Source: Streptomyces sp. NBC_01216
Lineage (GTDB): Bacteria > Actinomycetota > Actinomycetes > Streptomycetales > Streptomycetaceae
Assembly (NCBI RefSeq): GCF_035994945.1
Contig: NZ_CP108677.1
Coordinates: forward strand, 3,534,001 to 3,598,000
Length of the DNA stretch: 64,000 nt
Direction: 5' to 3'
Part shown: positions 22,412-41,291 of the stretch, one piece after another
How positions within the stretch are numbered: position 1 is the stretch's first letter
Layout of the letters: each line of letters opens with the position of its first letter
The notes under the pieces: model-generated
The model's database searches: none
Seen by the model: only the letters and a program-made list of their open reading frames with translations
What the model was told of the DNA's origin: nothing
Translations under genes and position numbers: made by a program

Positions 22412-22570
22412 ATGTCTGCAGCCTTCCGCGCCCGCTTGTGTGCCGCCGCCCTCCTCGCACTCGCCCTGACCGGTGCGGTACTGGCCACCGGACCGGCTTC
22501 CACACAGCCCGGGGACACCGCTCAGACCGTCACCTTGGCCGGGACCACCGACGACAACGGCTGGTGGTAG
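22412..22570 (+). CDS. Small secreted peptide (52 aa) ending DDNGWW
   Basis: From ATG 22412, preceded by GGGGGA, the frame encodes 52 residues: a classic signal peptide (positively charged AFRARLCAA, hydrophobic LLALALTGAVLA) and a short mature part, roughly TGPASTQPGDTAQTVTLAG, followed by TTDDNGWW and a TAG stop. I do not recognise a family. Two terminal Trp with an acidic stretch make it look like a precursor of a short C-terminal signalling peptide rather than an enzyme or lantibiotic (one Cys only, in the leader). It starts the operon: the next gene begins 57 nt later. The role as signal is inferred from size, secretion signal and adjacency to a LuxR regulator. Confidence 0.72.
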   Translation: MSAAFRARLCAAALLALALTGAVLATGPASTQPGDTAQTVTLAGTTDDNGWW

Positions 22571-22627
22571 GGCGAGCGCGCACCGCAGCCGAGCCAGCGT
22601 CCGCCCGTCCGTCCTCGAGGAGCCGAG

Positions 22628-23965
22628 ATGGATCTCATCGCCACCGCGCCGCCGACACCCGACCCGGCCGCCGTCCCCCACCAGAGGCCGACCCACGTCC
22701 CGGGCCTCACCCGTACCGTCGAGGTAGCCGTCGTCGGCATCGGCTACGCGGGTCTGCCGCTGGCTGTGGCCGCCGCGGCCGCCGGACACCGCACCCGCGG
22801 GCTGGACCTCAACGAGTTCCTGGTGGCACAGGTGAACGTCGGCCGCCCGCCGGTGGACACCGTGACCGCCGCCCAGCTCGACGCCGTCGCCGACCGGCTG
22901 GACGCGAGCACCGACCCGGCGTTCCTCCGCGAGTGCTCGGTCATCGCGCTGTGTGTGCCCACCCCGGTGGACACACATGGCGTTCCCGACCTGGGGCCGC
23001 TGCTGTCCGCGACCCGCACCGTCCGCGACCATCTCGTGCCGGGCCGGCTGGTGATCGTCGAGTCGACCACCTATCCCGGCACCACGGACGGGATCATCCG
23101 CGAAACCCTGGAGGAGTCCGGCCTGGTGGCGGGCGAGGACTTCTTCCTCGCCTTCTCCCCCGAACGCGTCGACCCCGGCAACGAGCACTTCGGCTTCCAC
23201 AACACGCCCAAGGTCGTGGGCGGCCTCACGGACGCCTGCCGGGTACGGGCGGCGGCGTTCTACCGCGAGCTCACCGAGCAGGTGCACGTCACCCGCTCGA
23301 CCCGTGAGGCCGAGGCCGCGAAGATCCTGGAGAACACCTACCGGCAGGTGAACCTCGCGCTGGTCAACGAGTTCGCGCAGATCTGCCACCGGCTGGGCGT
23401 GGACGTCTGGGACACCATCGACGCGGCGGCCACCAAACCCTTCGGATTCACCGCCTTCCGCCCCGGCGCCGGCGTCGGCGGCCACTGCATCCCGGTCGAC
23501 CCGCTGTACCTGGTGCACCGTGCCACCCAGGAGGGCCTGCCTTTCCGCATGGCCGAGCAGGCCCAGCGCGTCAACGACTCGATGCCCGTCTGGGTCGCCT
23601 CCCGGGCGAGGGACCTGCTCTCCCGGCACGAGGCCGGGGTGCGCGGGGCGAAGGTGCTGCTCCTCGGCGTCACCTACAAGCCGGACGTCGCCGACGTGCG
23701 CCACTCGCCCGCCGAACCGCTGGCCGTCGAACTGCTCGGCATGGGTGCGGAGGTGAGTTTCCACGACCCCTACGTGGACGCCTTCTCGGCTCGTGGCCGG
23801 GCGCTGCCGCCCAGCCGGGACGCCGCGGCGGCGGTCGCCCAGAGCGATCTCGTCATCGTCGTCCAGCGCCACCGCGCGTACCGGGACGAACTACTCGCCG
23901 GGGCCCGGCTGCTGCTCGACACCAGTGGCCCCGCCACGATCGGAAGCGAGGCGGCACGGCCGTGA
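22628..23965 (+). CDS. Nucleotide-sugar 6-dehydrogenase (UDP-sugar to uronate)
   Basis: A 445-residue member of the UDP-glucose/UDP-GlcNAc/ManNAc dehydrogenase family, which oxidises C6 of an NDP-sugar to a uronic acid in two NAD+ steps. The Rossmann motif is VVGIGYAGLPLAVAAA near residue 35. The catalytic cysteine is in GVGGHCIPVDPLYL near residue 285. ILENTYRQVNLALVNE and the C-terminal GVTYKPDVADVRHSPA are also family-typical and closer to the WecC/WbpA-type HexNAc enzymes than to UDP-Glc dehydrogenase. It is the first enzyme of the operon and overlaps the NRPS gene by 4 nt. Confidence 0.92.
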   Translation: MDLIATAPPTPDPAAVPHQRPTHVPGLTRTVEVAVVGIGYAGLPLAVAAAAAGHRTRGLDLNEFLVAQVNVGRPPVDTVTAAQLDAVADRLDASTDPAFLRECSVIALCVPTPVDTHGVPDLGPLLSATRTVRDHLVPGRLVIVESTTYPGTTDGIIRETLEESGLVAGEDFFLAFSPERVDPGNEHFGFHNTPKVVGGLTDACRVRAAAFYRELTEQVHVTRSTREAEAAKILENTYRQVNLALVNEFAQICHRLGVDVWDTIDAAATKPFGFTAFRPGAGVGGHCIPVDPLYLVHRATQEGLPFRMAEQAQRVNDSMPVWVASRARDLLSRHEAGVRGAKVLLLGVTYKPDVADVRHSPAEPLAVELLGMGAEVSFHDPYVDAFSARGRALPPSRDAAAAVAQSDLVIVVQRHRAYRDELLAGARLLLDTSGPATIGSEAARP

Positions 23966-39933: not shown

Positions 39934-39935
39934 CC

Positions 39936-41291
39936 ATGACCAGCACCACCGAACAGTTCGCCGACCTCTCCGCCACCACCCTGCTGCGCTTCGCGACCGC
40001 CGGCTCCGTCGACGACGGCAAGTCCACCCTCGTCGGCCGCCTGCTCCACGACTCCAAATCGGTCCTCACCGACCAGCTCGAAGCCGTCGAACACGCCTCC
40101 CGCTCCCGCGGCCAGGAAACCCCCGACCTCGCACTGCTCACCGACGGCCTGCGCGCCGAACGCGAGCAGGGCATCACCATCGACGTGGCCTACCGCTACT
40201 TCGCCACCAGCCGACGCCGCTTCATCCTCGCCGACACCCCCGGCCACGTGCAGTACACCCGCAACATGGTCACCGGCGCCTCCACCGCCGACCTCGCCCT
40301 CGTCCTCGTCGACGCCCGCAACGGCGTCGTCGAACAAACCCGCCGCCACGCCGCCGTCGCCGCACTCCTACGCGTCCCGCACGTCGTCCTCGCCGTCAAC
40401 AAGATGGACCTCGTCGACTACGCCGAGCCCGTGTTCGCCGCCATCGCCGAGGAGTTCACCCGGTACGCCACCGCGCTCGGCGTCCCCGAGATCACCGCCA
40501 TCCCCCTCTCCGCGCTCGCCGGCGACAACGTCGTGGAACCCTCCGCGCACATGGACTGGTACGGCGGCCCCACCGTCCTCGAACACCTGGAGCATGTGCC
40601 GTCGGGTGTTTTCCCGCGCCGCTCCCGGGCCGAGGCCCGCTTCCCGGTGCAGTACGTGATCCGTCCGCGGACCGCCGAGCACCCCGACTACCGCGGCTAC
40701 GCCGGGCAGATCGCCGCCGGAGCCTTCCGCGTCGGCGAACGGATCACCGTGCTCCCCTCGGGCCGGACCAGCACCATCGAGGCCATCGACGCCCTCGGCG
40801 ACCCGGTCGACATCGCCTGGGCACCCCAGTCGGTCACCATCCGGCTCGCCGACGACATCGACATCTCCCGCGGCGACCTCATCGCCCCCGCCGACGACGC
40901 CCCGCCCACCAGCCAGGACGTCGAGGCCACCGTCTGCCACGTCGCCGACACACCGCTCACCCTCGGCCAGCGCGTCCTGCTCAAGCACACCACCCGCACG
41001 GTCAAGGCCCTCGTCAAGGAGATCCCCTCTCGCCTCACCCTCGACGACCTCTCCCAGCACCCCCAGCCGGGACGGCTCGTCGCCAACGCGATCGGCCGGG
41101 TCGTGGTCCGCACCGCCGAACCCCTCGCCCTCGACGCCTACGCCGACTCCCGCCGCACCGGCTCCTTCCTCCTCATCGACCCCGCCGACGGCACCACCCT
41201 CGCCGCCGGCATGGCCGGCGAATCCTTCGCCCGTACCGGGACGCGAGCCGGCGCCGGTGACGACGCCGGTGACGAGGGTTGGGACTTCTGA
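39936..41291 (+). CDS. cysN: Sulfate adenylyltransferase large (GTPase) subunit
   Basis: A 451-residue EF-Tu-like GTPase subunit that couples GTP hydrolysis to APS synthesis by CysD. GTP motifs: TAGSVDDGKSTLVGRLL (P-loop), DTPGHVQYTRNM (G3), NKMDLVDY (G4). Two beta-barrel domains follow. Unlike many bacterial CysN, it has no fused APS kinase; that activity is the separate cysC. I start at ATG 39936, 2 nt after cysD. It is the last gene of the operon; no clear terminator follows. Confidence 0.95.
   Translation: MTSTTEQFADLSATTLLRFATAGSVDDGKSTLVGRLLHDSKSVLTDQLEAVEHASRSRGQETPDLALLTDGLRAEREQGITIDVAYRYFATSRRRFILADTPGHVQYTRNMVTGASTADLALVLVDARNGVVEQTRRHAAVAALLRVPHVVLAVNKMDLVDYAEPVFAAIAEEFTRYATALGVPEITAIPLSALAGDNVVEPSAHMDWYGGPTVLEHLEHVPSGVFPRRSRAEARFPVQYVIRPRTAEHPDYRGYAGQIAAGAFRVGERITVLPSGRTSTIEAIDALGDPVDIAWAPQSVTIRLADDIDISRGDLIAPADDAPPTSQDVEATVCHVADTPLTLGQRVLLKHTTRTVKALVKEIPSRLTLDDLSQHPQPGRLVANAIGRVVVRTAEPLALDAYADSRRTGSFLLIDPADGTTLAAGMAGESFARTGTRAGAGDDAGDEGWDF

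Follow-up and report, generated by a model that had tools for sequence, protein, structure and literature searches.

The window analysed here, a stretch of 64,000 nucleotides of the main contig (NZ_CP108677.1, positions 3,534,001 to 3,598,000) of the 7.72-Mb genome of Streptomyces sp. NBC_01216, carries a biosynthetic cluster of 16 genes that run in one direction between positions 22628 and 41291 (Table 1). Eight of the 15 junctions between these genes are 4-nt overlaps, which bears out the co-directional operon, joined mostly by such overlaps, that was described in an earlier reading made without database searches (hereafter the sequence-only reading). The enzyme classes named in that reading are likewise present, with conserved catalytic motifs. 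While its account of the enzyme genes stands, it overlooked a conserved family core with exchangeable ligases, a LuxR-type regulator with a small DNGWW peptide, and an ABC-type domain fused to the Ldh2 dehydrogenase. Since the regulator gene and the 52-aa open reading frame (ORF) for the peptide lie ahead of the enzyme genes, the start of the unit should be set at 21054.

Table 1. Features of the cluster and its island in the window (NRPS, non-ribosomal peptide synthetase; MFS, major facilitator superfamily; VOC, vicinal oxygen chelate; PAPS, 3'-phosphoadenosine-5'-phosphosulfate; APS, adenosine-5'-phosphosulfate; GT2, glycosyltransferase family 2)
Feature	Position	Strand	Basis or remark
tRNA-Ala (tgc)	19721..19794	+	ARAGORN; left edge of island; conserved in syntenic L091/L092
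Genomic island with cluster	19843..41703		blastn synteny against G004
LuxR-type (GerE) regulator	21054..22052	+	orthologs 68-86% identical in related cluster-bearing Streptomyces
52-aa ORF, C-terminus DNGWW, stop TAG	22412..22570	+	partner of the LuxR gene
Nucleotide-sugar 6-dehydrogenase (UGDH)	22628..23965	+	TIGR03026, 377 bits (cut-off 189.8)
NRPS A-T-C, 1056 aa, C-domain motif HHFVLDG present	23962..27132	+	domain and motif match
Polysaccharide (NodB-type) N-deacetylase (DeAc)	27129..27950	+	PF01522, 74 bits; TFDDG and HxxxH conserved
MFS exporter (predicted)	28021..29376	+	PF07690
ATP-grasp ligase 1 with LAL_C2	29408..30700	+	domain match
VOC/glyoxalase-fold protein	30782..31189	+	H-H-E positions conserved
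Ldh2-type 2-hydroxy/2-oxo-acid dehydrogenase fused to truncated ABC-ATPase fold	31223..32806	+	family match
Gfo/Idh/MocA oxidoreductase (Gfo/Idh)	32803..33738	+	PDB relatives include glucuronide-3-dehydrogenase and DgpA
TIMa, xylose-isomerase-like TIM barrel, no Pfam match	33735..34505	+	homology search
TIMb, PF01261 sugar isomerase/epimerase, metal-ligand positions conserved	34502..35386	+	Pfam and alignment
PAPS-dependent-type sulfotransferase (SulT)	35383..36207	+	PF13469
ATP-grasp ligase 2, L-amino-acid-ligase type	36210..37499	+	domain match
GT2 glycosyltransferase, DDD motif, 299 aa, alternative start 37529	37496..38395	+	PF00535
CysC, APS kinase	38399..38980	+	family match
CysD, ATP sulfurylase small subunit	38977..39933	+	family match; mosaic with other genomic copies
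CysN, ATP sulfurylase large subunit	39936..41291	+	family match

A conserved core with exchangeable ligases

Judged from its gene content, the cluster belongs to a family in which the core is conserved while the ligases are exchangeable. To the 34 loci that were found by scanning genome contigs with a sulfotransferase alignment (A1, 20 sequences), seven from cluster-positive Streptomyces and the window were added, giving 42; three taken to be duplicate strains were dropped before counting, which left 39 (34 scan loci, four from Streptomyces and the window). Nine core families, namely Gfo/Idh, TIMa, TIMb, SulT, VOC, Ldh2, DeAc, GT2 and UGDH, were sought with iterated hidden Markov models (HMMs) in flanks of up to about 10 kb, several of the contigs breaking off within the cluster. 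TIMb was found in all 39 loci, as was SulT, whose presence follows from the design of the scan. Gfo/Idh was found in 38, TIMa and GT2 in 36 each, DeAc in 34, VOC in 33, Ldh2 in 32 and UGDH in 13, with three further UGDH genes in adjoining stretches examined later. At least six of the nine families are present in 37 of the 39 loci, and at least eight in 29. The order GfoIdh-TIMa-TIMb-SulT is contiguous in 34 loci, the exceptions being L048 to L052.

An independent search with TIMa in 392 genomes of the same genus gave matches in 21 (E <= 0.001), and all eight strong matches (E < 1e-15, the window's own included) lie beside Gfo/Idh, TIMb and SulT genes. In a phylum-wide sample of 396 genomes, the sulfotransferase was matched at E <= 1e-20 in only two, the window's own and one of the same genus. 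Members were found in Streptomyces, Kitasatospora, Nocardia, Actinomadura, Micromonospora, Streptosporangium, Allokutzneria, Glycomyces, Paenibacillus, Priestia and a Blastocatellia metagenome-assembled genome (MAG), with a partial gene set in a Clostridiaceae MAG; on these matches, the cluster family is rare yet widely spread. When the core families of the window and the scan loci are compared by pairwise distance, the 28 family pairs correlate at 0.67-0.93, with the highest values inside the group GfoIdh-TIMa-TIMb-Ldh2 and between DeAc and GT2, a correlation that shared phylogeny by itself also yields.

The ligases vary. By HMM matches in the stretches examined, 12 of the 39 loci hold an NRPS alone, 11 an NRPS with ATP-grasp ligases, three ATP-grasp ligases alone and 13 neither. 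A PaaK-like ligase is present in nine of the 34 scan loci and in the plasmid pFRL2; the one examined had no Pfam match, and PaaK/F390 models matched it below their cut-offs. Locus L041 holds a polyketide synthase. From cluster to cluster the scaffold genes remain constant while the amide or acyl portion is apparently swapped, so the family may make a single sulfated scaffold that carries varying acyl or peptidyl groups.

Two further genes were seen in PaaK-type clusters. In L036, L038, L040, L042 and L044 (Nocardia, Nocardiopsis), the genes for the PaaK-like ligase and the MFS protein flank a peptide-deformylase-like gene, which could serve tailoring or self-protection. In L087 (17801-18832) and L026, the sulfotransferase is directly followed by a protein of the enolase superfamily, for which DgcA is the nearest model, matched below its cut-off.

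Several observations weigh against the proposed reading of this family. L048 holds only two of the nine families and L052 only five; TIMa was not found in the loci of the Blastocatellia and Clostridiaceae MAGs; and UGDH is present in just 13 of 39 loci, or 16 with the extended stretches. The loci also share phylogeny and are not independent, with close relatives among them (Nocardia L038/L040/L042, Actinomadura L033/L034), and plain AMP-ligases, such as those of L049 and L050, are picked up by the NRPS model too.

The core enzymes

Conserved positions were compared in eight families (alignments of 32-39 members; numbering of aligned fragments). The TFDDG and HxxxH motifs of the NodB-type deacetylase and the DDD motif of GT2 are conserved, as are the PAPS motif QRxGTTA, R150 and S158 of SulT. 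The same holds for E139/D169/H196/H198/E237 of TIMb, E121/D146/Q172/E213 of TIMa, H19/H67/E126 of VOC, EKP of Gfo/Idh and RGHxSHG of Ldh2. From what is known of these families we take the conserved residues to be catalytic, and the enzymes look intact.

Among structures, the relatives of Gfo/Idh include a putative oxidoreductase (3kux, E 2e-14), a glucuronide-3-dehydrogenase (2e-12) and DgpA (4e-10). The sulfotransferase profile best matches protein-tyrosine sulfotransferases and also CurM and another polyketide-synthase sulfotransferase. The best NCBIfam models for GT2 are MftF and EpsD, all below cut-offs, and the two ATP-grasp proteins are related to L-amino-acid ligases.

In the Ldh2 protein, the dehydrogenase occupies residues 184-512, preceded at residues 7-171 by a truncated ABC-ATPase fold without Walker A. 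The joining of such a fold to a dehydrogenase, with a Walker A that some lineages keep, as in an Actinomadura version, and others have lost, is an unusual architecture. In Priestia (L031) and Paenibacillus (L027), the same fold (window 31223-31740) is encoded by a gene of its own. Three proteins (P0039, P0041, P0052) are GT2-ABC-Ldh2 fusions; the ABC-like part must be included in them because 96-97% of the window's ABC-Ldh2 protein is covered. A SulT-VOC fusion (P0180) was also found, and such fusions would tie steps of the pathway together. Ldh2 is absent from seven of the 39 loci, and an MftD-like flavin mononucleotide (FMN) dehydrogenase is present in three of those (L046, L049 and L050, which are related Actinomycetota) and in none of the 32 loci with Ldh2. 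Because the FMN enzyme takes the place of Ldh2 in these three loci, there are hints that the Ldh2 step is alpha-carbon chemistry on a 2-hydroxy or 2-oxo acid.

The VOC protein is more ambiguous. A pathway role is favoured by the SulT-VOC fusion, and a protective one by relatives on unrelated plasmids and by the free orientation of its gene in pFRL2; both a purely resistance function and a part in the pathway have some support. The plasmid relatives are about 50% identical and occur in Staphylococcus, Rhizobium, Microvirga and others (e.g. CP030483.1, 4674-5027).

A LuxR-type regulator and its DNGWW peptide

The pattern DNGWW followed by TAG was found in five of 295 genomes of the same genus, four of which carry the cluster. 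In the fifth, G015, the DNGWW ORF lies directly ahead of a Gfo/Idh homologue. That locus, of 20 kb, gave matches to NRPS, ATP-grasp and MFS families and also carries radical-SAM, methyltransferase and SAM-synthetase genes, but no SulT, TIM, GT2, DeAc or UGDH match was found in it. When any stop codon was allowed, five of 29 records (three strains being listed twice) matched, namely G245, with a TGA stop, G015 and the genomes of L020, L022 and L023; the other 24, all with core loci, lack the exact tail, although variant tails would escape this search. Among these, the genome of Kitasatospora L024, with the same NRPS/ATP-grasp cluster type, did not show the exact tail, and in the plasmid locus L086, again of this type, neither DNGWW nor a LuxR ortholog was found.

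Where the peptide is present, the regulator mostly accompanies it: an ortholog adjoins it in eight of nine loci, the window included (68-86% identity in the other seven), and lies about 16 kb off in G015. The C-terminal DNGWW is invariant in all nine aligned peptides while the remainder drifts. A profile search gave 16 proteins at E <= 10, and the 12 inspected all end in DNGWW, in a search that favours shared five-letter words. G014 has a LuxR gene of 64% identity and, after it, an ORF of 46 aa with the C-terminus DENGWW; no core gene was seen in the 6 kb examined of that contig, and the LuxR/NGWW pair thus also occurs away from the core genes. The wider LuxR family is found in 199 of 199 genomes of the same genus (E <= 1e-12).

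From this arrangement, the two genes appear to be a regulator with its peptide, possibly a signal, which probably controls expression in this subgroup. Other observations tell against this reading. The stop is TAG in eight of the nine peptides and in the DENGWW ORF of G014, compared with one of 17 other genes here; a codon-position test gave no clear third-position excess outside the tail; and, by eye, the ORFs of G219 and G014 have no clear hydrophobic start, as an exported peptide would. The DNGWW tail may instead act as a precursor or at the level of RNA or DNA. Attenuation through the Trp-Trp pair of a DNGWW leader is disfavoured, as no terminator-like site was found in 20700-22900 and the gap to UGDH is 57 nt, and also by G015, where the Gfo/Idh gene follows almost immediately.

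Small ORFs near LuxR genes were surveyed in all four flanking zones of 33 loci, made up of those of the window's own genome and the best-scoring ones. A Trp in the last four residues was seen in nine of 21 signal-like small ORFs, in eight of the 33 loci, compared with none of nine in reversed sequence. As three of the nine belong to this cluster (its DNGWW peptides) and a further two appear spurious on visual inspection, Trp-tailed ORFs near LuxR genes are a lead only. One LuxR paralogue (L106, G000:C1:1488766-1489590; L019) lies near a 43-aa signal-like ORF with the C-terminus KDSAWG. Three ATP-grasp matches of that genome, with 27-37% identity, are only a few kb away; this is perhaps a second regulator/peptide-controlled cluster. 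Another paralogue (L107, G000:C1:3785988-3786860) stands beside an 84-aa signal-like ORF with three EPSWE repeats, the arrangement expected of a multi-copy pheromone precursor.

Genomic island and PAPS-supply genes

In G004, the segments corresponding to window 18072-19842 (with the tRNA-Ala gene) and 41704-42219 are only 474 bp apart, and the interval 19843-41703 can therefore be regarded as an island, which measures about 21.9 kb and abuts the tRNA-Ala gene. Most flanking genes are kept in G005 as well, with no cluster gene in the 20 kb examined. A tRNA-targeted integrative element was considered, but no direct repeat of the tRNA end is among the 20 of 48 direct-repeat families listed. Between the tRNA-Ala and LuxR genes (19850-21050) there are, by eye, apparent gene remnants, including a truncated GerE-like piece at about 20478-20708.

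Related clusters lie on plasmids: on pcz of Streptomyces sp. WA1-19 and, as a PaaK-type cluster, on pFRL2 of Streptomyces sp. FR1, while matches to the sulfotransferase and to VOC were also obtained on two plasmids of S. albidoflavus. A sulfotransferase search of a plasmid collection matched four Streptomyces plasmids only.

The host genome has three further cysD copies, whose proteins are 97-99% identical over residues 16 or 20 to 318. Between the cysCDN genes of the window (38399-41291) and the L018 copy, which adjoins a PAPS-reductase-like gene, stretches of 100% DNA identity alternate with stretches of about 77-84%, a mosaic that points to gene conversion (other copies: L016, L017 and L018). 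A YcaO protein adjoins the copy at L016 (5122-7392).

Proposed product and pathway

With a little more than even confidence, we read these genes as a specialised-metabolite cluster for a small sulfated sugar–peptide conjugate. Sulfation is uncommon in the small molecules so far characterised from bacteria. The means of sulfation seen in the sequence-only reading would be provided by a sulfotransferase with conserved PAPS motifs and clustered CysC, CysD and CysN, and the capacities for amide ligation, glycosylation and export that it proposed are in keeping with the NRPS/ATP-grasp, GT2 and MFS matches. The soluble, sulfated amide that it envisaged as product is supported in part, since the sulfate could be a leaving group. 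Its remark that no known product family could be recognised also holds, in so far as a literature search, as distinct from a cluster-database comparison, gave no matching cluster in the portions of the papers available. The family itself is real and conserved, with no product described in the literature searched, and the product class appears sound on the gene content.

We infer the product class and the order of steps, with substrates guessed from the enzyme families. UGDH would supply an NDP-uronic sugar, and GT2 would attach either an N-acetyl sugar or a uronic sugar to its acceptor, after which the NodB-type deacetylase would free an amine. Gfo/Idh may then oxidise a ring hydroxyl (C3 by analogy), with TIMa and TIMb epimerising, eliminating or hydrating next to the ketone. 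Ldh2 (the FMN enzyme in three relatives) and VOC could set a 2-hydroxy/2-oxo-acid centre. With the PAPS that CysC/D/N make as donor, the sulfotransferase would add a sulfo group to the scaffold; the A-T-C NRPS may aminoacylate the freed amine, which the two ATP-grasp amino-acid ligases would extend, and the MFS protein would export the product. The order would accordingly run from NDP-uronate through glycosyl transfer, N-deacetylation, 3-oxidation with TIM remodelling, sulfation and aminoacylation to export. The 3-keto idea is suggested by the structural relatives of Gfo/Idh and, in the available part of one report, by an operon of Agrobacterium in which a Gfo enzyme is accompanied by two TIM proteins.

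These assignments are tempered by the matches themselves. The best structural match of Gfo/Idh is an uncharacterised oxidoreductase (3kux), and many other sugar dehydrogenases also match. The TIM fold cannot separate an epimerase from an eliminase or a hydratase; TIMb matches many such enzymes, and a hydratase is not its top match. The presence of VOC relatives on unrelated plasmids makes this protein possibly protective instead of biosynthetic.

A fuller version of this proposal is tentative and could easily be wrong: an unrecognised family of sulfated sugar–peptides, spread by islands and linear plasmids in Actinomycetota and Bacillota, with Nod-factor-like assembly by glycosylation, N-deacetylation, acylation and sulfation, a 3-keto-remodelled scaffold and, in one Streptomyces subgroup, a LuxR/NGWW switch. 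The core is a precise handle for studying it, with eight co-inherited enzymes and exchangeable ligases in dozens of genomes. If one shared sulfated scaffold is made, a single structure would explain the whole family, and if the LuxR/NGWW pair is a signal system, it would offer a route to switching on such silent clusters.

Alternative explanations

The sulfate might not remain on the product. Sulfation can act as an activation step in CurM-like systems, and a cryptic leaving group on an activated hydroxyl would lead to a sulfate-free product in which a double bond, a ring or an aziridine-like centre has formed. SulT does sit inside the scaffold-forming block (GfoIdh-TIMa-TIMb-SulT, in 34 of 39 loci) and not with late tailoring genes, and its profile matches both CurM and the second polyketide-synthase sulfotransferase. 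However, no elimination partner was identified, and the best structural matches are protein-tyrosine sulfotransferases, which leave sulfate on their product; we consider a leaving-group role unlikely, if worth keeping in mind. Somewhat less probable still is a known product whose cluster lies outside the sources compared, such as a described sulfated glycopeptide or nucleoside. The literature search around the gene set speaks against it, with the scope given above. The text available on bulgecin calls its route unknown (PMC5472815), and that on ascamycin and nucleocidin indicates other enzymes beside a sulfotransferase and PAPS supply (PMC9113183).

We give very little credence to a pathway resembling that of ribosomally synthesised and post-translationally modified peptides, with the DNGWW peptide as substrate of the ATP-grasp ligases, GT2, SulT and other enzymes. 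The invariant tail in nine of nine otherwise drifting peptides, directly ahead of the first cluster gene in the subgroup, would suit a precursor, but the exact tail is missing from 24 of the 29 records searched, all 24 with core loci, among them the L086 plasmid and Kitasatospora L024 (variants of it would go unseen), and the LuxR/DENGWW pair of G014 lies on a contig with no core gene in the 6 kb examined. Equally improbable is a sulfated exopolysaccharide or a modification of the cell envelope. GT2, deacetylase, UGDH and sulfotransferase genes are also found in polysaccharide pathways, and the available text of one report proposes a putative sulfated-exopolysaccharide cluster in Actinoplanes (PMC13390465). 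Yet the 16 genes gave no Wzx/Wzy/Wzz-type or polymerase/flippase match, and what they encode instead is an NRPS, a pair of amino-acid ligases and an MFS exporter, with a single glycosyltransferase.

Comparison with known systems

RRNPP receptors are tetratricopeptide-repeat proteins, whereas the partner of the peptide in the window is a GerE-type LuxR protein. What is shared with RRNPP-type signals, as far as the available text describes them (PMC10075063), is the pairing of a regulator with a small-peptide gene; in the present case the peptide often starts like a signal sequence, and its short C-terminus is fixed. A literature search gave no description of a LuxR/NGWW pair, and nothing was found for Art22.

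As to the product, bulgecins are sulfated glycopeptides for which NRPS, glycosyltransferase and sulfotransferase components are expected, according to the part of the report available (PMC5472815). They are of the product type proposed here, but come from Burkholderia-type producers by a route termed unknown there; no Burkholderia is among the named organisms in the matches listed (120 in each of two homologue searches). The ATP-grasp amide ligases with LAL_C2 recall the L-amino-acid ligases and the alanine-anticapsin ligase BacD, although the window has two of them beside an A-T-C NRPS.

For the scaffold, an A. tumefaciens operon with glycoside and Gfo dehydrogenases and two TIM proteins carries out 3-keto-glycoside chemistry, by the portion available (PMC10628242). 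Such operons (A. tumefaciens GlycDH/AtOGE/AtHYD; DgpA/DgpB-C) share with the window a Gfo/Idh enzyme and two TIM-barrel isomerase/epimerase-like proteins, and a pair of xylose-isomerase-like TIM proteins with metal-ligand positions is indeed present here. From what these sources offer, the operons degrade glycosides, whereas the trio of the window stands in a biosynthetic operon with a sulfotransferase.

The rhizobial Nod-factor toolkit consists of NodC, NodB, NodH and NodPQ. At the family level, the window shares with it a GT2 enzyme, a NodB-type N-deacetylase, a predicted acylation of the freed amine, a sulfotransferase and a dedicated PAPS supply. In contrast to that toolkit, none of the 16 genes matches NodA, acylation falling to NRPS, ATP-grasp or PaaK enzymes; the GT2 protein has 299 aa, with the MftF and EpsD models as its nearest, sub-threshold neighbours; and Gfo/Idh, two TIM barrels, VOC and Ldh2 are added. 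The assembly logic resembles that of NodC/B/H/PQ, yet the gene set is not a Nod cluster.

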